A stretch of DNA of 56,076 nucleotides from Chitinophagales bacterium (GCA_020629005.1 JAHDEE010000013.1:1-56076); one strand, 5' to 3'. Numbered from the stretch's first letter, positions 22,226 to 35,255 are shown. Made by a program: numbers and translations. Notes: a model not told the origin generated them from the letters alone.

Positions 22226-23053
22226 ATGGTTCCTAGTGAAATGATGCAACCTTATTATCCGATCATCAGGGTGATTTCGAAGGCATATGAGATTCCGCAG
22301 TTGGGTAGAAAGAGGAGAATTGCTGCTCTGCTCCCGCATGATTATTATGATAGTAATAAGAGCTATCCGATCCTGTATTTGAACGATGGGCAAAATCTTT
22401 GGGAGGACCGTGGGGCTTATGGTGATTGGGGTGTAGATGATGCAATGCAATTGCTTGCTTCTCAGGGTATGAAGGAGATCATTGTAATTGGAATTGATCA
22501 TGGGGGCTCTTCGCGGCTGAATGAATATGCCCCATATGCTAACCATCGCTTTGGAGAGGCGCAGGGTGATTTGTATCTGGACTTTCTTATAAATACCCTT
22601 ATACCTTACGTTGAGAAAACATTTCGCGTGAAGCAAGGAAGGGAAAACACAGGTATTGGCGGAAGTTCTATGGGAGGATTGATCAGTCTTTATGCCGGAC
22701 TTCGATACCCAAATATATTCAGTAAATTAATGATCTTTTCTCCTAGTCTATGGGTGGCACCAAAGATTTATGAAAAGACACGGGCTTTCACACCTACTCA
22801 GCCGGTGAACATTTATCTGTATGCGGGCGAAAATGAAAGCGAGGAACACCTTCCCAACGTCACAAAACTGAGGGAAGAGCTACTATTACATAAAGATGGT
22901 GTTAATAATATAAGTTGCAAACTATCTGTAGACCCAAGAGGAACTCATAATGAGCGCTTTTGGAATAAGGAATTCCCTATAGCCTTAAAGTGGCTTTATT
23001 TTCACTCTAAATTCGACTCTGATGAATATCAGTACCCACAAATCACTCCCTAA
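22226..23053 (+). CDS. alpha/beta hydrolase, PF00756-type esterase
   Basis: 275 residues without a signal peptide. The fold markers are KSYPILYLNDGQNLWE, EIIVIGIDHGG and the nucleophile elbow GGSSMGGL; the catalytic acid and His lie near YLYAGENESEEH and PRGTHNERFW. These resemble IroE/Fes-like and feruloyl-esterase-like cytosolic hydrolases that cut ester or acyl links. The 3' end overlaps the aminopeptidase gene by 32 bp, so the two form one operon with the broken ATP-grasp gene after them. A second esterase of the same superfamily is on the facing strand at 29107. A tailoring hydrolase role in the cluster is inferred. Confidence 0.88.
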   Translation: MVPSEMMQPYYPIIRVISKAYEIPQLGRKRRIAALLPHDYYDSNKSYPILYLNDGQNLWEDRGAYGDWGVDDAMQLLASQGMKEIIVIGIDHGGSSRLNEYAPYANHRFGEAQGDLYLDFLINTLIPYVEKTFRVKQGRENTGIGGSSMGGLISLYAGLRYPNIFSKLMIFSPSLWVAPKIYEKTRAFTPTQPVNIYLYAGENESEEHLPNVTKLREELLLHKDGVNNISCKLSVDPRGTHNERFWNKEFPIALKWLYFHSKFDSDEYQYPQITP

Positions 23054-24473
23054 TAAAACGGGATGTATCATCATTCCATTTCTGGAGGACAAGATTGACA
23101 AGCAGCTGATAAAGCAATTTGCTGATACAGAAGAAGAACTGGATTTTTCAGGTCGATTCAAACAAAAGCTAAGTCTGTATCCTGCTGATCGGCCGAAGGT
23201 GCTATTGCTTGGCCTTGGTAAAGCTGAACAAATTTCACAAGCGGCTGACGCATTTCGCAATCTGGCTTTCAAGTTAAACAACAGATTTGGGGACCGAGCA
23301 AGTGTGATTTTGAGTCATTTGGAGGAGAGCTATGTTTTGGAGGCAGCTCTGGGAATGAAAATGGCTACCTATCAGATCGGGACTTTTAAATCTAATCCAG
23401 CGAAGGCCGTTGGGATTCACAAGCGCAATTATCCCATTCAATTTGTTAGCGATTCTCCGAAGGCAAAATCGCTGGTGACGGAGGGAATAGCCATTGCCGA
23501 TACCCGCTGCGAAATGATGCGACTGGTTGATATGCCTGCGGACCGGAAGACACCTGAGTATATTGGCAAGTATGTACTAAAGTCGGCAAAAGCGAACGGA
23601 TTCACAGCAAAGGTGCACAACAAGGCTAGGTTAAAGAAGATGGGTTGTGAGGCGATTCTGGCAGTAGGTCGCGGTAGTGAACATCCTCCTGTGTTGATTG
23701 AAATGGAGTACAAGCCCAAGGGCAGCAAGTCCAAAATTCCGGCTTTAGGCCTGGCTGGTAAGGGTATCACTTTCGATACTGGCGGATTGTCGATTAAGGG
23801 ATCGATGAACATGCATTATATGAAGTCCGACATGGGTGGAGCAGCAGCTGTGATTGGTGCTATGGAGTTGGCAGCAAAGCTTAAGCTACCGATACATATC
23901 GTGGCTATGGTGGCAGCCTCAGAAAACAGTGTAGATGCATTGAGCATAAGGCCCGGAGATGTAATTGGCAGCTATTCTGGAAAGAGTATTGAAATTATTG
24001 ATACCGATGCAGAGGGCCGTCTGGTGCTGGCGGATGCGCTAGCTTACATGAACGAAAAGTACAGTCCGGAATGTATGGTTGATCTGGCGACGCTAACTGG
24101 AAGTTGTGTCAGAACATTTGGATATGCATGCGGCGGGCTGTTTACCCAAAATGACGGACTTGCTGAACAGCTCACCTCGGCTGGGCTGAAGGTGAGAGAA
24201 AGAGTTTGGCGACTTCCAATGTGGGATGACTATCTGAGTGACATTCATTCCGATATTGCCGATGTGCGAAACTTTAGTGGCAAGCCCATTAATGGAGCCA
24301 TAGCTGCTGCCAAGTTTCTTGAGTTCTTCACTGAGGAACACCCGAACTGGGCACATCTTGACATCGCCGGAGTTGCTTTTGGAGGTTCGGAGTATAGTAA
24401 GATGAAAGCGGCCACAGGATATGGACCGAGATTGCTATTGGAATTTATTAGAGGAATGATCAAAGCTGCATAA
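23022..24473 (+). CDS. M17 leucyl aminopeptidase family protein
   Basis: A 483-residue cytosolic dizinc aminopeptidase. The N-terminal macro-like domain occupies ~1-150. Catalytic-domain motifs are LAGKGITFDTGGLSIKG (Lys and first metal Asp), MKSDMGGAAAV, and DTDAEGRLVLADAL (the family signature, usually NTDAEGRL; here Asp replaces Asn). Length is normal for PepA. The start lies inside the esterase gene, and the ATP-grasp gene follows after 11 bp. The position in a run with ATP-grasp ligases raises the idea that it trims or recycles a peptide-like product instead of serving general turnover, but that is inference. Confidence 0.93.
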   Translation: MNISTHKSLPNKTGCIIIPFLEDKIDKQLIKQFADTEEELDFSGRFKQKLSLYPADRPKVLLLGLGKAEQISQAADAFRNLAFKLNNRFGDRASVILSHLEESYVLEAALGMKMATYQIGTFKSNPAKAVGIHKRNYPIQFVSDSPKAKSLVTEGIAIADTRCEMMRLVDMPADRKTPEYIGKYVLKSAKANGFTAKVHNKARLKKMGCEAILAVGRGSEHPPVLIEMEYKPKGSKSKIPALGLAGKGITFDTGGLSIKGSMNMHYMKSDMGGAAAVIGAMELAAKLKLPIHIVAMVAASENSVDALSIRPGDVIGSYSGKSIEIIDTDAEGRLVLADALAYMNEKYSPECMVDLATLTGSCVRTFGYACGGLFTQNDGLAEQLTSAGLKVRERVWRLPMWDDYLSDIHSDIADVRNFSGKPINGAIAAAKFLEFFTEEHPNWAHLDIAGVAFGGSEYSKMKAATGYGPRLLLEFIRGMIKAA

Positions 24474-24484
24474 ACACTGAAACC

Positions 24485-25694
24485 ATGAGCACTGCACTTA
24501 CTTTTCTATGCATTTCGAGATTTTTTAAGGGAGAAGCCCTGATGGAAGCAGCGCATGCCAGTGGGCATAAAGTAATGTTGCTTACTTCAGGAAAGCTTCG
24601 CAATGAAGCCTGGCCCTGGGAAGCAATTGATGAGGTATTCTATATCGAGGAAGATAAGCAGGGGCGCTGGAACATGGCCCATGTTCAGTCAGGGCTTGCT
24701 CATTTACTTCGAAGAAATAAGATTGATCGTTTGATCGCTATGGACGATTTTGACGTGGACAAGGTGGCAGATCTTCGGGAACATTTCCGGATAACTGGAA
24801 TGGGGCAATCCCAGATATTTCAGAGATAAGTTGGCCATGCGTAGCAAGGCGAAGGAACACAAGATTCCGATTCCTGCTTTTACCAGTTTGTTTACCAGGG
24901 AGGAGATTGATCAATTTGCGAAGGAGGTTGCCTCACCTTGGATCCTGAAACCACGTTCTTCTGCCAGTGCGAGAGGGATTACAAAGATAAAAGAGGCGGG
25001 CGAACTTCCTGCTGCTATTGCCTCCTTAAAGGAAGAGTGGCATGGCTATCTACTGGAGCAATTTCGCCCAGGCAAAGTCTTTCATTTTGATGGACTCGTG
25101 AACGAGGGTAAAGTGATCTTCGGTAAAGCTAGCCAGTATTTAGATACACCATTGGAGATCACGCAAGGCGGAGGCATATTTCGATCACAAACAATAGCAG
25201 ATGACTCTGAAGATGCAAAGAAGATGAAGTCAATAAATGCAAAAGTGATGAAGCATTTTGGCTTGAAGTACGGCGCCTTTCATTCGGAGTATATCAAGGG
25301 AGAGGATGGGAAGTTTTACTTTCTAGAGACTTCTTGCAGGGTTGGTGGCGCGCATATCGCAGAAATGGTTGAAGCAGCAACAGGCATCAATCTTTGGGTA
25401 GAATGGGCTAAAATCGAAGTTGCCAATGCACTAGGCACTAGTTACAAACTACCAAAGGTGTTGAAGAAACACGCGGGAATAGTATTGTCCCTGACTCGCT
25501 TTCAAAACCCTGATGATTCGCCTTTTGATGATAAGGAAGTATGCTGGAGGCTAAAGAAGGATTGGCATATTGGATTGATCCTTTCGGCACGAAGCGCAAA
25601 GAAAATCACAACGATGCTGGAAGAATATTCTGCTAGAATTGCCCGGGACTATCAGGCTTCGCTTCCCGAACAGGAGACACTTTACAATCCTTAG
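24485..25694 (+). pseudogene. ATP-grasp ligase split by a frameshift
   Basis: Two open frames together make one ATP-grasp protein of ~400 residues. The first (24485-24829) is the pre-ATP-grasp domain and ends MGQSQIFQR. The second frame carries RYFRDKLAMRSKAKEH immediately at 24813, which is the family sequence that should continue from GMGQS. Skipping one C in the CCC at 24810-24812 restores the frame. The second part has ATP-grasp motifs WILKPRSSASARGI, YLLEQFRPG, GAFHSEYI and YFLETSCRVGG. Either the gene is broken, or the base call is wrong, or +1 frameshifting occurs. It follows the aminopeptidase gene by 11 bp and converges with the minus-strand half of the cluster. Confidence 0.8.
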
Positions 25695-25739
25695 ACCTAA
25701 AGCTCGATCGGTCCTGGAGGTTTGCACGATTGACGCAGC

Positions 25740-26939
25740 TTAGCGTTCGAAGAAGCCAACACTGCCGCCTACCCAGGTGCGATCTTTATTGTATTTGCTT
25801 CCCACCATATCCCCTTTTGTAAGGCGAACGAGGTTGTTTACCACAACCGGTCTTTCTTGATCCTTTTGCCATAACATCAGCATTCGCACTTCACATTTGG
25901 CGGGATCGTCTAAGGTTGGAATCAGCGCATCATAGTGTACTTTGCGCTGGAGAATGTAGTTGCTTTTATCCTCTAGCTTGTCCAAATCGTTTGCCGTTAT
26001 GTTGAGATTTACGCCAGCACCTGCGAATGAGAAGATTGGCTTTAACACATATTTATCCAGGTCTTCAGGGTATTCAGTCAACTGATCTACAAATAAACTT
26101 GGGGGGTTATATTGACTATTGATCAGAGGTAATATAAACTTGCTAATTCTGAAGAACCATGCTGGATGCCCAACCCATTTCACATCAACCTCTTCGTGAA
26201 AATAGAAGCTGCGCTCGAGATCGGGCCTTCTGTGTAGCTCATCAAAAATGACTCGGTTGTAGATGCGCTCGATCTTGATCTCCTTTCCTGCTTCATCCAT
26301 GTAAAACAGATTGCGATCACGTTTGATCAGATCCCCTATGCACAGCACCTTGATTCCCAGTTCGGCTTCGGTAAAGACAAAGTCAATATAGGTATGTTGC
26401 TTTTCAGGCTCCACCTCCAGCATTACGACATGTTTTGTGTCGCTCTCACCGATAATAATATCTCTTAGTATCTCGACATATTGCTGGGAGGAAATATCGC
26501 CCAGCAAATGGCTGTAACCCTCCGGAATCTCGAAGTGCTTTTGATAACTTTGGGCCAGGTGGTTCTGGAAGAAATAAAGGGATGGAAACCCTTGAACTTC
26601 GATCAGCTGCGGGAGCAGCTTACCTTCCGGTGTTTTGCAGATACCAAAGTCCATTTGGATAAAGGGACAATAGTCGTCTTCATTTGGAATCTGTACTCCT
26701 CCCCTTTCGAGCGCCGAATTGGTTAGCGATTTGAATTCGGGTTCGTAAATTATCGAACCAATTTCTTCACAGGCATCAAGTAGCGTTTCCTTTAATTCTT
26801 TTGGAATAAAAACCGGCGTTTCTGCCACCCTAAATTCAGGACTGATACCTCTCGGATTAGCCTGCAGTGACTTCAGCAATTCTCGATACTGTGCTTCGCT
26901 GAATCGCTCGTTGTATTGCTGTCGTACCTGCTTATGCAT
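25740..26939 (-). CDS. uncharacterised ATP-grasp-like protein
   Basis: 399 residues, cytosolic, with no confident named family. The segment KYVLKPIFSFAGAGVNLNI (~310-330) looks like the ATP-grasp phosphate/lysine loop, and YILQRKVHYDALIP and CEVRMLMLWQ fit the strands that follow. The N-terminal half has FIQMDFGICKTPEG, LPQLIEVQGFPSLY and IYNRVIFDEL. This resembles glutathionylspermidine-synthetase-like or permuted ATP-grasp ligases. It is the last gene of the minus-strand run, 25 bp after the amidotransferase gene, so it likely acts with it. A C-N ligase role is inference. Confidence 0.6.
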   Translation of the reverse strand: MHKQVRQQYNERFSEAQYRELLKSLQANPRGISPEFRVAETPVFIPKELKETLLDACEEIGSIIYEPEFKSLTNSALERGGVQIPNEDDYCPFIQMDFGICKTPEGKLLPQLIEVQGFPSLYFFQNHLAQSYQKHFEIPEGYSHLLGDISSQQYVEILRDIIIGESDTKHVVMLEVEPEKQHTYIDFVFTEAELGIKVLCIGDLIKRDRNLFYMDEAGKEIKIERIYNRVIFDELHRRPDLERSFYFHEEVDVKWVGHPAWFFRISKFILPLINSQYNPPSLFVDQLTEYPEDLDKYVLKPIFSFAGAGVNLNITANDLDKLEDKSNYILQRKVHYDALIPTLDDPAKCEVRMLMLWQKDQERPVVVNNLVRLTKGDMVGSKYNKDRTWVGGSVGFFER

Positions 26940-26963
26940 ATCGCTGCCTCTTGGATGAATTTG

Positions 26964-27791
26964 CTAGCTTTGCAAGTCTGCCAACTGTACGGACAGATTC
27001 TTGATCGCGGTTTCGATGAAGTTGGGCAGAATACTGCTTTGCGTCAACTCCACCTTAGCAGGATCAAGTAGACGCTCCATCATCAGTTGATATTTCTCCT
27101 CGCCGAAGGTATGCTTGATTTTGCGCTTGTTTTCTTCCTGGGCCATATACCAAAGCATCCCATCGGGATCAGCTTCTGGGTGGAATTGAGTCCCAACTAC
27201 CTCATCTGAAAAGCGGACCGCCATTATCGCCCTTTCATAGGCCACATGATCCCTAATCTTTTCCAGAGAAAGAATAGTGGCTCCATGATCTACAAAATGA
27301 TCAAGATTTGGCTGAATCAACTGCCAATCTCTACTGTCAACGGCGAAATACGGATCTGGAAGCCCGTGCAAAATGGGGTCCGTTTGTCCTGCATCGGTTT
27401 TATGCACCGGATGAACACCAAAGGATGTAGAGTGGCGCTTGGTGATATCACCTAATTCTAAATGTGCACAAGCCATTTGGAAAGAATGACAGATCAAAAA
27501 GAAGTACTTCTTCCGAGAAACAGTAGTTGTGTTATAGGCAAAGACCTGATCAAGCAAGGTTCCAAACTTCTTGTCCCAAATGCCATTTCCTTCGAGCGGA
27601 TTTCCTGGACCTCCTGATGAGATATAGATATCAAAGTCAATTGTAGGAACCTCGTCCTTCACACGAACGTCAAATTCCGTCATTTCCAACTGATCGCTAT
27701 ATTTAGCTACGATCTCTCGGATGCAGGCCATCCCTTTGTTTTCTTGCCCTGCATACATATTCAACAAGGCGAGCTGCAGTTTCCTTTTCAT
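26964..27791 (-). CDS. class I glutamine amidotransferase-like protein
   Basis: 275 residues from the ATG at 27791 (an ATG at 27818 would add nine residues). The GATase fold shows SSGGPGNPLEG (oxyanion strand), the nucleophile Cys in FLICHSFQ (residue 101) and the His-Glu pair in GTQFHPEADPDG (204, 206). The classical GxCxGxQ elbow reads ICHSFQ, a variant that keeps Cys. The C-terminal ~60 residues are an extra helical part. Beside ATP-grasp genes, such proteins supply ammonia or hydrolyse gamma-glutamyl bonds. Which applies is not visible. Confidence 0.85.
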   Translation of the reverse strand: MKRKLQLALLNMYAGQENKGMACIREIVAKYSDQLEMTEFDVRVKDEVPTIDFDIYISSGGPGNPLEGNGIWDKKFGTLLDQVFAYNTTTVSRKKYFFLICHSFQMACAHLELGDITKRHSTSFGVHPVHKTDAGQTDPILHGLPDPYFAVDSRDWQLIQPNLDHFVDHGATILSLEKIRDHVAYERAIMAVRFSDEVVGTQFHPEADPDGMLWYMAQEENKRKIKHTFGEEKYQLMMERLLDPAKVELTQSSILPNFIETAIKNLSVQLADLQS

Positions 27792-27820
27792 ACTGTATTT
27801 CAATCGACGTATAAACAATG

Positions 27821-27873
27821 ATCAAGCCAGAAGTGGAGCTCGCTTTGAGCCACCACTTCTGGCTTTGATTTTT
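27821..27873. other. long intercistronic hairpin
   Basis: AAGCCAGAAGTGG (27824-27836) pairs perfectly with CCACTTCTGGCTT (27853-27865), with an inner GCTC/GAGC pair and a T5 run on the plus strand. It stands between two minus-strand genes, where it could partly terminate, protect the upstream mRNA or set expression ratios. The plus-strand T-run would also stop read-through from the converging genes. Confidence 0.6.
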
Positions 27874-27928
27874 GAGGCCATCTAAGATAGACAATATCGG
27901 TCAATTACGCCTATCATTGCGCTAAAAC

Positions 27929-29077
27929 CTACTTATTCTTCTTGGCAGTAACTCCCGCTTTACTCTTCGCTCCTGCCTTGGCTTTCGTCGTGGACTTCTT
28001 AGCGCTAGTTTTGCTAGCTGTCTTCTTGGCAGCCGTTTTCTTTGTCACTATTTTGGCTGTTCCATTGGCAGAGGCTCCTGCAGCACCATTTTTGCTCACC
28101 GTTCTTGCTTTTCGTACTACTCGTTTAACCGGCTTGGCTTGAACAGATTCTACCATGAAATCTCCCCAGGTCAGGTTCATTTTACCTTCCTTGTGTGCCA
28201 AGGCACGCTCAATGGCAAAGGTTGCTGAATTCTCGACAATCCATTCGAAATTCTCCTCGCCGACAGAATGCCGATCTGCGTCCGGAGCTGGATTGCAGAA
28301 ATCAATGGCATATGGAATTCCGTCACGAACCGCGAACTCTACGGTATTGAAGTCATAACCCAAAGCCTTGTTCAACTTAATGGTCAGCTCCTCTACTTTC
28401 TTTAAGAGCTTCTTATCCGTACAAGGATTGTCCACCTGGTACCGCAAATGATGAGGATTTCTTGGCTCGTAAGGCATAACCAAAACTCGATCTCCGCCCA
28501 GGCAGTAGTTTCTGAAATAGTGATCAAAAACAATTTCCTCCTGAAGCATCATCACCAATTGCCCGGTTTCCGCATGTGTGGCAAACAAGTGCCCAGGATC
28601 ATTGATCTTGTACACATTTTTCCAGCCACCACCAGAATATGGCTTCATGTAAGCAGGAAATCCGATGTGGTCAAAAATGTATTCCCAATCTGTAGGGAAT
28701 GCCAGATTTCGGAAAGATTTTTCACTGGTATCATCTGGTCGATGATGTGAAGGCAAAAGCACCGTTTTGGGAACAGGTACACCAATCTTTTCAGCCAGGC
28801 AGTTGTTAAAGAATTTCTCGTCTGCGCTCCACCAGAAAGGATTGTTGATCACTGCTGTTCCAGTAGAAGCGGCATTCTTCAGGGCAGCTCGGTAAAAGGG
28901 TACATCCTGTGAAATGCGGTCTATGATGACAGCATAATCCAGCGCTGTATTTTGCTGAACCACATCGATACGCACAGCCTCAGCCTGCACACCCTTGATA
29001 TTCTTTGAGTTAACTCGCTCAATAAAAGCGTTCGGAAAGGTATCTTCCTGTCCGAATAATATTCCGATTTTCTTCAT
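27929..29077 (-). CDS. ATP-grasp ligase with histone H1-like Lys/Ala tail
   Basis: 382 residues. The first ~310 are a D-Ala-D-Ala-ligase/RimK-like ATP-grasp enzyme: MKKIGILFGQEDTFPNAF, YAVIIDRIS, AYMKPYSGGGWKNVYKI (ATP loop), MMLQEEIVFDHYFRNYCLGG and the metal motif NTVEFAVRDGIPYAIDFCNPAPD. Such enzymes join a carboxylate to an amine through an acyl phosphate. The last ~65 residues are low-complexity Lys/Ala/Thr (KKTAAKKTASKTSAKKSTTK), like eukaryotic H1 or bacterial HctA/AlgP tails. A tail on a ligase is odd: it could bind nucleic acid or polyanion, or serve as its own amine-rich substrate. The sequence stays in frame without a break. Confidence 0.85.
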   Translation of the reverse strand: MKKIGILFGQEDTFPNAFIERVNSKNIKGVQAEAVRIDVVQQNTALDYAVIIDRISQDVPFYRAALKNAASTGTAVINNPFWWSADEKFFNNCLAEKIGVPVPKTVLLPSHHRPDDTSEKSFRNLAFPTDWEYIFDHIGFPAYMKPYSGGGWKNVYKINDPGHLFATHAETGQLVMMLQEEIVFDHYFRNYCLGGDRVLVMPYEPRNPHHLRYQVDNPCTDKKLLKKVEELTIKLNKALGYDFNTVEFAVRDGIPYAIDFCNPAPDADRHSVGEENFEWIVENSATFAIERALAHKEGKMNLTWGDFMVESVQAKPVKRVVRKARTVSKNGAAGASANGTAKIVTKKTAAKKTASKTSAKKSTTKAKAGAKSKAGVTAKKNK

Positions 29078-29106
29078 CGCTAATGGAATTGTATAATTTA
29101 AATTTA

Positions 29107-29817
29107 TTAATGCATCATATGGGAAAGATACTTAGGGAACATCTTCCTCCACAAAGGCCAGTCATGTTTTTCTCCCCGATAGATATCCAGCCAATGCTTG
29201 ATACCCTTAGCATTTAGTATGCCAGACATTTTTCGACTTGCATCCAAACAAATATCATGTTCCCCTACGCCTAGAACTATGCTCATCTGCCAAAGATGCG
29301 GGTTATTGTTGCCAGGCATATAATCCACAGGGTTGTTGAAGTAGACGTTTTCATCATAGTAATTGTCTACAAAAGACTTCACTTCAAAGGCTCCACTCAT
29401 AGACAAGAGGTGGCTTACCCTGTCTGGGTGTCGAAAGGCAAAATTCAAAGCGTGAAAGCCTCCAAAACTTGGTCCGGCCACACATGCTTTTGCATGACCT
29501 GACTTCTGCAAAGCCGGTTCAAGGATTTCTCTATGTATAAACTTATCATACCAGATATGATTCTTCACTCTGGAAGCCGGCGGAATGGATTTATTGTACC
29601 AGCTATATGCATCTACACTAGATGGACAATAAACTTGTATCATGCCCTTCTCAATAAACCATTTAGCCGACTCCAACATTTTGAAATCGCGGTTTTCGTG
29701 ATAAGAACCTTTGGTTGTAGGAAACAGGATCACCGGTCGCCCTGTGTGCCCGAAGATAAGGAGCTCGGTGTCCATACTGAGTGTGGGTGAGTACCACTTT
29801 TTATACTGCTCTTGCAT
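29107..29817 (-). CDS. PF00756-type esterase
   Basis: 236 residues, cytosolic. Motifs: LLIFGHTGRPVILFPT (core strand), VDAYSWYNKSIPP, the nucleophile elbow AGPSFGGFHAL, and a C-terminal EKHDWPLWR with the catalytic His. It belongs to the same superfamily as the esterase at 22226 but is a distinct subgroup that often lacks a signal peptide. It lies 53 bp after the GH31 gene and 29 bp before the ATP-grasp gene, so it could belong to either unit. The mirrored presence of an esterase on both arms of the ATP-grasp locus favours that assignment. Confidence 0.85.
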   Translation of the reverse strand: MQEQYKKWYSPTLSMDTELLIFGHTGRPVILFPTTKGSYHENRDFKMLESAKWFIEKGMIQVYCPSSVDAYSWYNKSIPPASRVKNHIWYDKFIHREILEPALQKSGHAKACVAGPSFGGFHALNFAFRHPDRVSHLLSMSGAFEVKSFVDNYYDENVYFNNPVDYMPGNNNPHLWQMSIVLGVGEHDICLDASRKMSGILNAKGIKHWLDIYRGEKHDWPLWRKMFPKYLSHMMH

Positions 29818-29869: not shown

Positions 29870-32260
29870 TCAAAATCGGTGCAAAAGTAGTACTTTATTA
29901 AATGTGGGGTCTACATTTAGGACGAAAATATTTCCATCAATTTCTCCCTGGTCAACCATCTCCACCCCATCGACGCTTGCACTTGTAATTGGAAAGGGGC
30001 AACCTATGAAGCTGATTTTCAGTGATGTGTATGGTGGCACAAATTCTCCAGCATAGCTGTGTTCGAGTGTCGCAGAATCAGTTGCGCCTTTAAACAAAAA
30101 TTCCGACCATCGGTATTTCTTCTTCTGATACTCATAACCATCATTGGAATCTGTATACAAATTACTCTTGATCTCCGATTCTGAGAAGTAGACTCTCAGT
30201 TCTAACTGTTCCACCTCTTTCTCTCCCACATATTGCATGAGGGGAAACTGCGGAATCACTGCTCCACCTCTGACCATGAGCGGAATTCTATCCAATGGGG
30301 CCGGCATCTTATAGGACCTGCCACCGCTGTAAGCCCGGTTGGTCCAGTAATCGTACCATTGCCCATCTGGAAGCAGGACGGATCGGCTTGTGACACCTTC
30401 TTCAAGCACAGGACAGTATAGAAGATGATCTCCCAGCATGCACTCATCCGATCGATCAATAAATTTTTCATCCTTGACAGTTCGGTCGAAGAGCATTGGC
30501 CTCAACATAGGCACACCGAATCGATGGTGCTGGAAGAAGCAGGTGTAAATGTAGGGCAGCAAGCGATATCGAAGGTTGATGAACACACGAGCATAGTCCA
30601 TATACTCTTTGCCAAATGACCATGGCTCCTGGTCTCCGTGATCCCCACTCGAATGTGTTCTGAAGAACGGATGAAAGGCAGCTAAAGCCACCCAACGCGC
30701 ATACAATTCGCCAGTAGGTCGTTCCGTAAATCCACCCACGTCAGAGCCACTAAATGAAACTCCGGAAATCGCCAATCGCTGTGTCTGTAAATGGGCGATT
30801 TCGAGGTGTTCCCAGGTGGCCACATTATCTCCGGTCCAGGTAGAACTATAACGTTGAAATCCGGCATAGCCAGATCTTGTGATCACCAATGGACGTTTGT
30901 TTCCCGCAAATTTCTTTACGCCATCCAAAGTTGCCCTTGCCATCTGCATGCCATAGACATTATGCGCCTTTCGATGACTGCAGGGATGTCCATCATAGTC
31001 ATGCCGCACATCGAGATGCATGGTTTTGCTATCTACTTCAAACAAGGCAGGCTCATTCATATCGTTCCAAACACCTGCAATTCCTTGCTTTTCGATCAGT
31101 TCCTCAAACAAAGTAGCCCACCATTCTCTCACTTCTCTTCTGGTGAAGTCAGGAAACAGGCAGTCTCCAGGCCAGACCTTGCCTTGAGCGTAAGCGCCAT
31201 CAGACCTGCGACAGAAGTATCCTTTGCCCAGAGCTTCGGTGAAAACAGAATAGTCAAAATCGATCTTAATCCCGGGATCAATGATCACCATCGTCTTAAA
31301 TCCTTGCTCGCTAAAATCGGCGATCATCTTTTTTGGGTCAGGAAACTTTTCTGCATCCCAGGTGAAGCAACGAAACCCGTCCATATAATCTATATCCAGA
31401 TAGATCGCATCACAGGGAATTTGATATTCTCGGAGCTTACTGGTTATCTCCCGTACCTTCGACTCGGGGTAGTAGGACCATTTGCACTGTTGGTAGCCTA
31501 GTGCCCACAGAGGTGGCATTTCAGGCGTACCGGTCAGCATGGCGTAACGCAGGGCTACATCCATCAGATGTGGGCCATTAATGAAATAATAATTCATCTC
31601 TCCGCCATCTGCCCAGAAGCTGCAAACATCGTCACGTTCACGGCCAAAATCGAAAAAGCTGTGGAAGCTGTTATCCATGAAAATGCCATAAGCCTTGTCA
31701 TGATGATAGCCGTAATACAGGTTGATATTCTTGTATAGCGGATCTGCTGTTTTGCTAAATCCGTAGGTATCGGTTCCCCAATTCGAGAAACGTTGGCCTC
31801 TCAGATTCTGATCCGCAGCTTTGTCACCAAGTCCATAGAAGGCCTCTCCTTCCTGGACCTTCTTGCTCATTTCCACGATATCCGTCCCAAACCTCGGATG
31901 CACTTCCCAATGGAATCCCTTTTCGTCTTCACATAAGATATGATAGGCCAGGTCGAGAATAGTGATCTTGAGGTTTTGTTTGTTCACCACACAGCGCAGC
32001 TTACTGGTGCTCAGCAATATATGTTGATCCGTTTCTTCTATACTCGGCACAGGATAGCTGGGACGATAATGTGGATTGATCGCATAGCTAAAATCTTCCT
32101 CGAAAAGCAGGCTGGTGGCATATCTAAATCGGAAAATATCCTGCTCCAATACATAAATTCTCACTCGCGCTTGTGCATCAGTGCTGATCTCCAGATAATT
32201 CCCTTTCCACACATGGCTTTTCCATGCACCTGGGTAAAATTCCTTTACTTCTTTCTGCAA
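29870..32260 (-). CDS. GH31 alpha-glucosidase
   Basis: A 796-residue cytosolic glycosidase with no signal peptide. An N-terminal galactose-mutarotase-like sheet (~1-220) precedes the (beta/alpha)8 barrel. Catalytic motifs are GVWNDMNEPALFEV (nucleophile Asp of WNDMNEP) and the acid/base region STWTGDNVATWEHL; the sugar subsite motif is FRTHSSGDHGDQEPW. The proximal C-domain ends near LRVYF. It likely cleaves alpha-1,4 or alpha-1,6 glucosides made during glycogen turnover, since glgC, glgA and glgB stand directly upstream in the same run (73 bp gap to glgC). Confidence 0.92.
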   Translation of the reverse strand: MQKEVKEFYPGAWKSHVWKGNYLEISTDAQARVRIYVLEQDIFRFRYATSLLFEEDFSYAINPHYRPSYPVPSIEETDQHILLSTSKLRCVVNKQNLKITILDLAYHILCEDEKGFHWEVHPRFGTDIVEMSKKVQEGEAFYGLGDKAADQNLRGQRFSNWGTDTYGFSKTADPLYKNINLYYGYHHDKAYGIFMDNSFHSFFDFGRERDDVCSFWADGGEMNYYFINGPHLMDVALRYAMLTGTPEMPPLWALGYQQCKWSYYPESKVREITSKLREYQIPCDAIYLDIDYMDGFRCFTWDAEKFPDPKKMIADFSEQGFKTMVIIDPGIKIDFDYSVFTEALGKGYFCRRSDGAYAQGKVWPGDCLFPDFTRREVREWWATLFEELIEKQGIAGVWNDMNEPALFEVDSKTMHLDVRHDYDGHPCSHRKAHNVYGMQMARATLDGVKKFAGNKRPLVITRSGYAGFQRYSSTWTGDNVATWEHLEIAHLQTQRLAISGVSFSGSDVGGFTERPTGELYARWVALAAFHPFFRTHSSGDHGDQEPWSFGKEYMDYARVFINLRYRLLPYIYTCFFQHHRFGVPMLRPMLFDRTVKDEKFIDRSDECMLGDHLLYCPVLEEGVTSRSVLLPDGQWYDYWTNRAYSGGRSYKMPAPLDRIPLMVRGGAVIPQFPLMQYVGEKEVEQLELRVYFSESEIKSNLYTDSNDGYEYQKKKYRWSEFLFKGATDSATLEHSYAGEFVPPYTSLKISFIGCPFPITSASVDGVEMVDQGEIDGNIFVLNVDPTFNKVLLLHRF

Positions 32261-32332
32261 TTGCTTCTCCTCTTTCGGCTCCTGATTTTCGATGACAATC
32301 CTGTTTTGGGGTGTTAAATTTTTAGTTTTTGA

Positions 32333-33619
32333 TTAGCTACTCACTTGTCCGATCTGCATATTGGCTGGGATATGCACATTCTTCTTTACGATAATGATGC
32401 CGTCCTTGATGCAATAAAGCTCCGTCTCATGGTCTTTCAGACTCTCGTGGCCCACAATGGACACATTATTTCCGATTTTGACGTTCTTATCGAGAATCGC
32501 GCGACGGATCTTGCAGTTGTTTCCGATGCCCAGTAGCTTGTCCGGTTTGCCTTCAATCTTATTGAGGGTCTGGTAATAATCATTCCCAGCCAATATAGAT
32601 TCGGTAATGACTGTGCCTTTCCCAATTCGTGAACGAATACCGATCACACTGTGCGATACCGACTCTGCATGAACAATACAGCCATCTGAAATCAAAGCAT
32701 GGGTGAGACGGGTTCCAAAAATCTTTGAAGGGGAAAGCATTCTTGCGTTCGTATAGATTTGATTGGTGTTATCATACATATTGAATGCCGGAAGGAAATG
32801 TGTCAGATATAGGTTTGCAGCAAAATAGCTGGATATACTTCCGATATCGGTCCAATATCCTGCAAAGGGAAAGCTAGACACCTTATAGTCTGGCGATTGC
32901 ACCGCATGAGGAATCAGTTCCTTGCCAAAGTCTAAAGCCTCCGGAAGCTCTTCAAATAGGCGATACATAGACTTTCGGGAAAAAACATAAATGCCCATAG
33001 AGGCAAGGTATTCTTTACCGCCTTTTGTAAATTCCTCTCCAAGCGGCGATTTCCAATTCGGCAGCTCTTCTAAATCCGGCTTTTCAACAAAATCAGCAAT
33101 CGTACTTTGATCATCGACTTTCATGATGCCGAAGCCTGTAGCATCGGCAGCATTCACAGGAATGGTGGCCACTGTCAAATCAGCCTCTGTCTCAATATGA
33201 CGCTGCAAAACCTCCCTAAAATCCAGTTGGTAAAGCTGATCGCCAGAAAGAATCATTACATACTCAAAATCCTGTGAATTGATTCTGGGAAAAGATTGAC
33301 GTACAGCATCTGCCGTCCCAAGAAACCATCCCTGATTCTTTCTGGTTTGTTCTGCCGCCAAAAGGTCTACAAAGCCACTGCTGAAAGTATCAAAATGATA
33401 CGCTTGACGAATATGCCTGTTGAGAGAAGCAGAGTTAAACTGCGTGAGAACAAACATCCGGCGCAAACCGGAATTTAGACAATTGCTGATCGGAATATCG
33501 ATCAGGCGGTATTTACCACATATTGGAACCGCAGGTTTTGAACGGTCCATGGTGAGCGGATACAAGCGTCTTCCTTCTCCACCGCCCAGAATAATTGCGA
33601 TCGTTTTTTGGATACTCAT
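32333..33619 (-). CDS. glgC: glucose-1-phosphate adenylyltransferase
   Basis: 428 residues. It makes ADP-glucose from ATP and glucose-1-phosphate, the committed step of glycogen synthesis. The nucleotide loop GGGEGRRLYPLTMDRSKPAVP starts near residue 12; the sugar-phosphate site is FVEKPDLEELPNW, and SGDQLYQLDF carries the metal Asp. The C-terminal left-handed beta-helix (~300-428) has the expected hexapeptide pattern. glgA lies upstream, separated by a 163 bp MITE-like insertion that lengthens the gap to ~200 bp. Allosteric control residues cannot be assigned by eye. Confidence 0.95.
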   Translation of the reverse strand: MSIQKTIAIILGGGEGRRLYPLTMDRSKPAVPICGKYRLIDIPISNCLNSGLRRMFVLTQFNSASLNRHIRQAYHFDTFSSGFVDLLAAEQTRKNQGWFLGTADAVRQSFPRINSQDFEYVMILSGDQLYQLDFREVLQRHIETEADLTVATIPVNAADATGFGIMKVDDQSTIADFVEKPDLEELPNWKSPLGEEFTKGGKEYLASMGIYVFSRKSMYRLFEELPEALDFGKELIPHAVQSPDYKVSSFPFAGYWTDIGSISSYFAANLYLTHFLPAFNMYDNTNQIYTNARMLSPSKIFGTRLTHALISDGCIVHAESVSHSVIGIRSRIGKGTVITESILAGNDYYQTLNKIEGKPDKLLGIGNNCKIRRAILDKNVKIGNNVSIVGHESLKDHETELYCIKDGIIIVKKNVHIPANMQIGQVSS

Positions 33620-33662
33620 TCTTTCCAGTTTGGCAGCAATATCGGTAATTTCTTCGAGTCAT

Positions 33663-33825
33663 TTAAGGGATTGGGAATGAATATCTATACCATTTTGACG
33701 CCGCTTGAAATGATTTAAACGAGGCATTTTTTGACAGCACCCTTGTTGGCTGGTGGAGAAAAATACCGATGGATAAATCATTCCTAAAAAGTCAGAATGG
33801 GCAGTTATTGATTCTTTATCCCTAA
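33663..33825 (-). mobile_element. 163 bp MITE-like element, copy 2
   Basis: On the minus strand it starts TTAGGGATAAAGAATCAATA and ends TCCCTTAA. It lies between glgA and glgC. Its first four bases TTAG give the stop codon TAG of glgA (ACT-TAG). The most diverged copy in the window, with changes such as TATACC for ACTGTC in one arm. Confidence 0.85.
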
Positions 33826-35255
33826 GTCGCCCACAACATTCGATACTCATCAGCATAGGCACCTATTGATCGCTGCCAGGAGTTATCTTCCTTCACGCAC
33901 TTTCTCACCAGTTTTGTAAAGGCCTTTTGATCACCGTAGAGCATCAAGGCCCTGACAATAGCATTGGCAAGCTCTTCAGTACTACCATCATAGAAGCGAA
34001 TACCGTTGCCTTTATCTCCGATGTCAGACACCGTATCCATCAGTCCACCAGTAGCGCGTACTATGGGCACCGTACCGTAGTGCAGACTAAACATCTGATT
34101 GAGTCCACAGGGTTCAAATCTTGAGGGCATCAACAAAAAATCTCCCGATGCATATAGCTGGTGTGCTACATCTTCATTATACATCAGCAGCCCCTTTACC
34201 CGACTGCCATGCCTCTGCTCACAAGCTTGCAGCAGTCCTTCAATCTTTTTGCTGCCAGTTCCGAGGATCACAAAATTGGCAGAACCTCCACGTGCAAAAA
34301 CCCGGTCAATTGCAGCTGGAATTAAATCCGCTCCCTTTTGGGCAGCTAGTCGACCGATAAAAGTAAACAAAGGCAAATCTTCATCCAGTTGAAGTTCCTG
34401 ACACAGATAGGCCTTATTGGCTTTCTTGAATTGCTTCCAGGACCGTGTCATTCGATGCTTGATTTTGGGGTCCTTTCTGGGATTCCAAACTTCCGTATCT
34501 ATCCCGTTCAGTATGCCCCGGGATTTCGCAGCCTCATCCTGCAAGAGACTATTGAGAGAAGGCAAATGCGCCTGAATCTCTCGTAAATAGTTTGGCGAAA
34601 CAGTGCTTAATCTCCAACAACATTTGATAGCCGCTGCCAAAGAATTGATATGCCCATCCCACTCCAACAGACCACCATCGTGATCGTGAAAATCAGGTAG
34701 GAAATGACGTGCCGACCAAGGCATAGGACCATGATGGGCTGCATTGTGAATCGTCAAATACGTCGGAATCTCACGGAGCTTCTCAAAGGCATAACCCTTC
34801 TTCATGAAAAAGGGTATCAGGCCAGCTTGATGATCATGACAATGAACCAGATCAAAAACGTTTGCCGCTTCATTTAGCCAAAGCAGCACAGCTCTCTGAA
34901 AACTGATGTTACGTGCAATCTCATCTCGAAAGCCCTCTCCGTCCGCATCCAGATAAACGGAATTTCTGTCGAATTTCCCCGGTATGTTTACGCAATAGAA
35001 AGGATAACCCATATGTTCAGGAGCGAGATAAAGCACTTCATATTGAACCGGCTCAAGTCCCAGATAAAAGCTCCCGCTTTGCACTTGCTGAAACTCCTGC
35101 TCTCGAAACCAGGGCAGGTCGTATTTCGGGATAATGACAGAAGCTTCTATCTGCTCCTCGGGAAAATACTTGGGCATCGCACCCACCACATCTCCCATTC
35201 CACCAGCCTTCGCAGCCGGATAACACTCTGTGCTAATGTGTAGTACGCGTTTCAT
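33822..35255 (-). CDS. glgA: glycogen synthase (ADP-glucose-dependent)
   Basis: A 477-residue GT5 glycosyltransferase. The ADP-glucose loop is K16-AGGMGD-22 (KTGGL type). Other motifs are HCHDHQAGLIPFFMKK, TIHNAAHHG, GRLAAQKGADLI and the C-terminal PSRFEPCGLNQM with the catalytic Glu. Its ATG directly follows the glgB stop with no spacer, so translation is coupled. The C-terminus is MLWAT; the final Thr codon and the TAG use the end of the downstream MITE. Length is normal, so the insertion has not obviously truncated it. Confidence 0.95.
   Translation of the reverse strand: MKRVLHISTECYPAAKAGGMGDVVGAMPKYFPEEQIEASVIIPKYDLPWFREQEFQQVQSGSFYLGLEPVQYEVLYLAPEHMGYPFYCVNIPGKFDRNSVYLDADGEGFRDEIARNISFQRAVLLWLNEAANVFDLVHCHDHQAGLIPFFMKKGYAFEKLREIPTYLTIHNAAHHGPMPWSARHFLPDFHDHDGGLLEWDGHINSLAAAIKCCWRLSTVSPNYLREIQAHLPSLNSLLQDEAAKSRGILNGIDTEVWNPRKDPKIKHRMTRSWKQFKKANKAYLCQELQLDEDLPLFTFIGRLAAQKGADLIPAAIDRVFARGGSANFVILGTGSKKIEGLLQACEQRHGSRVKGLLMYNEDVAHQLYASGDFLLMPSRFEPCGLNQMFSLHYGTVPIVRATGGLMDTVSDIGDKGNGIRFYDGSTEELANAIVRALMLYGDQKAFTKLVRKCVKEDNSWQRSIGAYADEYRMLWAT

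Follow-up and report, generated by a model that had tools for sequence, protein, structure and literature searches.

A co-inherited set of amidoligase genes across the Bacteroidota that may build a small pseudo-peptide

Introduction

Multi-amidoligase peptide operons were reportedly predicted by Iyer et al. in 2009, in a survey of amidoligase neighbourhoods. Operons that link several unrelated amidoligases, which are thought to work successively, are the subject of an earlier proposal (PMC4431377), and the idea of an operon with several amidoligases is prior art. A series of stand-alone amide ligases also operates in the E-64 pathway (PMC12568646), where a pseudo-peptide is made without an NRPS, as we propose here; that pathway differs from ours, however, in being fungal, in drawing its second ligase from another family (amide bond synthetase), in using an oxygenase for the warhead and in having no matching operon. 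Among individual enzymes, RimK, a poly-alpha-L-glutamate ligase, adds amino acids to RpsF and RimB removes them (PMC12239564), while YgiC and YjfC are peptide-spermidine ligases according to the report of Pederick 2023, as quoted in PMC12568646.

Here we describe a locus within a window of 56,076 nucleotides (the whole stretch of DNA analysed) from a Chitinophagales bacterium. In common with the multi-amidoligase operons, the Bacteroidota gene set to which it belongs has several linked amidoligases: at least two are found in a conserved neighbourhood, with peptidase and amidotransferase partners. The part of the literature that we consulted, which did not include Iyer et al. 2009, gave no description of this exact gene set.

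Results

Inspection of the open reading frames (ORFs) of the window placed seven genes in two converging arms between 22226 and 29817, with the same coordinates and strands as in an earlier note on this DNA. The plus-strand arm consists of EST1 (22226-23053), a PF00756 alpha/beta-hydrolase (108.6 bits), an M17 leucyl-aminopeptidase-type peptidase (23022-24473; PF00883, 364 bits), which is a dedicated paralogue, and GRASP1 (24485-25694; PF13535/PF02222 above cut-off), an L-amino-acid-ligase-type ATP-grasp enzyme split by a frameshift into ORFs at 24485-24829 and 24831-25694. The first gene of the minus-strand arm is EST2 (29107-29817), a PF00756 esterase (33.3 bits), followed by a RimK-like ATP-grasp ligase (27929-29077) that is the constant member of the set, by GAT (26964-27818), a class-I glutamine amidotransferase-like protein with PF00117 above cut-off, and by a GSP-like ATP-grasp enzyme (25740-26939) of the YgiC/glutathionylspermidine synthetase/glutathione synthetase fold group. 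Between the RimK-like gene and GAT lies an empty slot (27819-27928), which, as a comparison of stretches revealed, holds a YbdK-type carboxylate-amine ligase, GCS2, in relatives. Since both EST1 and EST2 pass the family cut-off, the earlier note was right to see one PF00756 esterase in each arm, as it was in its identification of the M17 peptidase and the class I amidotransferase. When M17, GSP-like, GAT, RimK-like and EST2 were compared with their counterparts in a genome of the same genus (G001), substitutions stood at 0.50-0.65 at third codon positions and 0.07-0.15 at second positions, implying that the locus genes are under selection and are not chance ORFs.

The two minus-arm ligases had been described as an ATP-grasp and an ATP-grasp-like protein. 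No family scored above its curated cut-off for either of them, and PDB searches from their alignments gave, by sequence alone, marginal matches only, and we therefore predicted their structures, which confirmed the fold in each case; for the product of 25740-26939, which had been called 'ATP-grasp-like', the more exact description is a GSP/YgiC-type fold. The core of the RimK-like model was mostly well predicted, and its closest match was RimK (Z 20.2, 2.9 Å, 259 residues), with LysX (19.4) and ArgX (19.2) close behind. The protein shares the ATP-grasp fold with these enzymes but is only about 15% identical to them, carries a variable basic or helix-hairpin-helix (HhH) tail of its own, and falls below the TIGR00768 cut-off (37.2 versus 143.4 bits, 2e-9). 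Lys145, Glu247, Asp259 and Asn262 are invariant across 38 sequences. No retropepsin partner recurs near the set in the 61 genus-level groups defined below.

The basic tail that had been noted for this protein is a Lys/Ala-rich, disordered C-terminal segment (residues ~306-382, 27932-28162, minus strand), with pLDDT below 50 from residue 314 onward. Tails of at least 40 residues, which may be lysine-rich, proline/acidic or HhH, were found in 33 of 91 relatives, about half of the relatives having 20 residues or fewer; the families represented are histone-like HC2 (PF07382), above cut-off in L062, and HhH (PF14520). Besides the window, examples of tailed ligases are L062:9905-11338, L064:10001-11377, L046:9390-10700 and L101:10001-11467. 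Two divergent RimK-like homologues of 34-35% identity (L018:1501-2466 in G039, and G143:C12:16954-17817) occur in genomes that have none of the other ligases. The G039 copy is without Asp259 and Asn262, which are expected to bind Mg, and, judging by these residues, may be a derivative that no longer has catalytic activity.

The GSP-like model (pLDDT 92.8) matched YgiC with Z 25.8 (3.5 Å, 342 residues), and further whole-length matches were YjfC (25.7), GspS (24.3) and the (homo)glutathione synthetases (GSH synthetase, 24.2). Cp1B, the ATP-grasp enzyme of the E-64 pathway, falls in the same fold group (Z 22.6). The score for PF03738, at 20.6 bits, lies below the cut-off of 29.3. In GspS, an R-x-D and an E-x-N motif bind substrate and metal. 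In a MAFFT alignment with YgiC, made from the sequences at about 20% identity, the corresponding positions read non-Arg-x-D97 and E114-x-Q116, so that the Asp and Glu are kept; a profile comparison of the two spans only 89 columns. Because the Arg is lost and the Asn has become Gln, we do not file the protein as a GspS/YgiC enzyme, and these motifs suggest that its chemistry may differ from that of YgiC. YgiC, YjfC and GspS have their fold in common with the GSP-like protein over its full length; structural identity is 12-14%, the active-site Arg and Asn differ, and so do the operon partners.

An intact GRASP1 orthologue (L042:6375-7574) matches the L-amino acid ligase 4wd3 (1.4e-20, ~267 residues), which is its closest solved relative. 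GRASP1 is homologous in sequence to the L-amino-acid ligases (PDB 4wd3, 3vot), but unlike them belongs to a conserved set of several ligases that also includes an aminopeptidase. The frameshift that had been read in the plus-arm ATP-grasp gene was also seen here: in G001 the gene is one full-length frame that follows EST1 and M17 on the same contig, and nucleotide alignment places a net 5-base gap near 24810 (24800-24831) in the window copy. Since the two halves are still similar to their G001 counterparts, at 81% and 71% identity, the break is either recent or a fault of the assembly.

A tree divided esterases that clustering had placed together into a group of 17 M17-linked members, including EST1 (support 98/97), and a group divergent from EST2; the esterases of operons with a circularly permuted ATP-grasp sit on a long branch, and their placement is unsure. 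EST1 is 88% identical to the G001 copy. EST2, which was found in 78 of the 101 stretches analysed, has an invariant serine in a G-x-S-F-G-G motif and an invariant C-terminal His (13 members). Besides EST1 and EST2, a third esterase of the PF00756 type was seen in many carriers (L068:7190, L101:8793, L085:8353); it diverges from EST2, groups apart from EST1 and is absent from the window. A second M17 peptidase of the window genome, on another contig, is 40% identical to the M17 of the locus. The dedicated M17 paralogue was present in the RimK-like carriers examined, and all four non-carriers checked had only a housekeeping-type M17. In GAT, Cys110, His213 and Glu215 are invariant (15 members).

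Among named genomes, at least 580 stretches encode a RimK-like relative; 80 of these, all from Bacteroidota, were taken further. Adding the window itself and 20 stretches drawn from relatives gave the 101 stretches (61 genus-level groups) used for ORF clustering. In relatives, EST2, RimK-like, GCS2, GAT and GSP-like follow one another on one strand in a fixed order, with GCS2 present in 81 of the 101 stretches, mostly adjoining the RimK-like gene and usually placed between it and GAT. The second arm, EST1-M17-GRASP1, nearly always lies on the opposite strand, with M17 nearby in 13 genus-level groups and GRASP1 in 16, indicating that the window's converging arrangement is itself a conserved feature; it is also seen in L042, L065, L069, L072 and L083. 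The block of five genes, like the convergent arm, turns up again in loci of flavobacterial, cytophagal and saprospiral origin. No further gene family was found near the set in more than 6 of the 61 genus-level groups, and there is therefore no widely recurring transporter.

Three further connections were considered and rejected. A run of alpha-glucosidase, glgC and glgA genes lies past EST2 on the same strand (29870-35255), and is also found in G001, while in G013 and G036 a glgC gene neighbours the set; a link to glycogen was set aside, as the run is shared with the nearest relatives only (glgC in 4 groups, glgA in 3, the glucosidase in 2). A RiPP or graspetide system was rejected after a scan of 842 small ORFs, none of which was common to more than two genus groups. 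Nor did PADLOC return a match to anti-phage defence systems for the eight proteins submitted.

To these neighbourhoods we added a phylogenetic profile of RimK-like, GSP-like, GCS2, GAT and GRASP1, based on 99 genomes sampled evenly from the Bacteroidota. RimK-like was present in 33 genomes (including G039 and G143, as the 34-35%-identical homologues only), GSP-like in 26, GCS2 in 25, GAT in 21 and GRASP1 in 20. All 26 genomes with GSP-like (p 8e-18), all 20 with GRASP1 (p 1e-12) and all 21 with GAT (p 2e-13), by tests uncorrected for relatedness, lie inside the RimK-like carriers, as do 24 of the 25 with GCS2, the one outlier being a 35%-identical homologue. Within the family f34, the set is either wholly present or wholly absent, and this pattern is a stronger argument than the p-values. 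In several genomes, such as G100 and G116, the members are far apart yet co-occur. GRASP1 is missing from many carriers, and the two arms are therefore separable. Members of the genera Flavobacterium, Pedobacter, Algoriphagus and Dyadobacter are among the carriers.

The earlier note had taken the locus for a candidate peptide-type pathway and had proposed a check of its conservation across Bacteroidota. Our comparisons show a conserved, co-inherited multi-ligase system, whose block and co-occurrence recur phylum-wide and whose convergent layout is found in other families and orders. Genes that were scattered and independent had been set beforehand as the outcome that would speak against the idea; they are scattered in some genomes but not independent. 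The note's statements that the locus lacks an obvious precursor peptide and a transporter agree with the small-ORF scan and with the census of neighbouring families. The picture has also changed: the set is common across Bacteroidota, and so no local curiosity, and it is larger than first noted, in that a GCS2 ligase, which the note missed and which is absent here, belongs to it.

The GCS2 proteins of relatives score above the YbdK-type equivalog cut-off (NF010039; 547 versus 371 bits). The window genome, by contrast, is without the gene: a search of the whole genome (G000, 97% complete) gave no match, and the slot measures 110 bases. The window lineage has thus lost GCS2. Among the relatives searched, 8 of 17 GSP-like carriers (the window genome and seven related ones) have no GCS2, and all eight have GRASP1. 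At least one of GCS2 and GRASP1 was present in each of 40 GSP-like carriers (p 0.014, with relatedness left uncorrected), which weakly suggests that either GRASP1 or GCS2 can supply the first step.

We also examined five RimK-like carriers without GSP-like (G072, G092, G080, G152 and G088). In G072, G092 and G080, an ORF of 450-470 amino acids follows the RimK-like gene, in the slot, and is succeeded by GAT and a further ORF. In L142:7643-9055 and L145:7576-8928 the slot ORF matches circularly permuted ATP-grasp models (for PF14403, L142 passes the cut-off and L145 falls short of it), and the ORF after GAT is a PF00756 esterase in both loci. The presence of a circularly permuted ATP-grasp in the GCS2 slot is a ligase replacement. 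GRASP1 also accompanies the variant operons of G072 and G092. The slot ORF of G152 resembles the others in size, and the core genes of the G088 stretch were not recovered by ORF calling.

Discussion

Taken together, gene content, folds, catalytic residues, synteny, co-occurrence, the loss of GCS2 and the replacement of a ligase elsewhere have been computed from the genomes. From here we infer substrates, the order of steps and a small-molecule product as opposed to a protein tag. The reading we favour, with little better than even confidence, sees in the locus one instance of an amidoligase set that is co-inherited across the Bacteroidota and whose most likely product is a small pseudo-peptide, made in the cytoplasm without the ribosome. 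In the simplest mechanism, acyl-phosphate ligations would follow one another. The first dipeptide or gamma-glutamyl amide would come from an amino-acid ligase, namely GRASP1 or, in relatives, GCS2; the RimK-like enzyme would extend it via an acyl-phosphate, and the GSP-like enzyme would cap its carboxyl terminus with one more amino acid or with an amine. GAT would provide or take away nitrogen at an amide or gamma-glutamyl group, and M17 and the esterases would trim or recycle the product and its intermediates. The frameshifted GRASP1 of the window, the altered active-site motifs of the GSP-like family and the weak test behind the first-step role of GRASP1 or GCS2 count against this explanation, and the lack of a widely recurring transporter or regulator would be unusual if the product were secreted. 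More tentatively, and with some doubt, we suggest that the RimK-like ligase is a constant around which the others are interchangeable between lineages (GCS2 with GSP-like, GSP-like with GRASP1 in the combination seen in the window, or a ligase of the circularly permuted ATP-grasp type), in which case related species may make related but different molecules.

The main rival is the reversible tagging of a protein or ribosome, in which the RimK-like enzyme would add amino acids to a (nucleo)protein reached through its basic or HhH tail and M17 would remove them. It draws on RimK as the closest fold, on the precedent for a ligase paired with a protease that RimK and RimB set in acting on RpsF (PMC12239564), and on the long tails, mostly lysine-rich or HhH, of about one third of relatives, with the HC2 match as an instance; lysine-rich and HhH tails suit a macromolecular target more than a small molecule, and so tell against our own reading. 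We nonetheless consider tagging unlikely, given that the tails of the other two thirds are shorter than 40 residues, that the RimK-like protein scores below the RimK family cut-off, and that tagging has no need of the extra ligases, the L-amino-acid-ligase-type enzyme or the amidotransferase.

A shade less probable again, and the second rival, is a glutathione-like or peptide-polyamine metabolite: GCS2 would form a gamma-glutamyl amide, to which the GSP-like enzyme would add glycine, beta-alanine or a polyamine. The outcome would be either a thiol of low molecular weight or a peptidyl-polyamine. In most carriers a YbdK-type GCS2 does lie close to a ligase of the GSH/GSP-synthetase fold, and such a product would fit both the gamma-glutamyl:cysteine ligase activity of YbdK (Lehmann 2004, as quoted in PMC2588565) and the peptide-spermidine ligase activity attributed to YgiC/YjfC (Pederick 2023, as quoted in PMC12568646). 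However, the window genome and seven related carriers have no GCS2, G072 and G092 have neither GCS2 nor GSP-like and carry the circularly permuted ATP-grasp instead, the active-site Arg and Asn of GSP-like differ, and the constant member, RimK-like, is left unexplained. A chance juxtaposition of general-purpose hydrolases and ligases that are inherited together, with no common pathway, is very improbable: the families are individually common and neighbouring genes are often inherited together, but co-occurrence persists where the genes are unlinked, carriers form strict subsets with an all-or-none pattern within a family, a separate M17 paralogue accompanies the set, and the same layout is found across orders.

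The set, with its three to five amide-bond-forming ligases, has been retained by many Bacteroidota of the environment, and 33 of the 99 sampled genomes have the constant member or a homologue of it. This would indicate that a major phylum has a peptide-type metabolite or modification that has gone unrecognised, and the ligases themselves are candidate biocatalysts.
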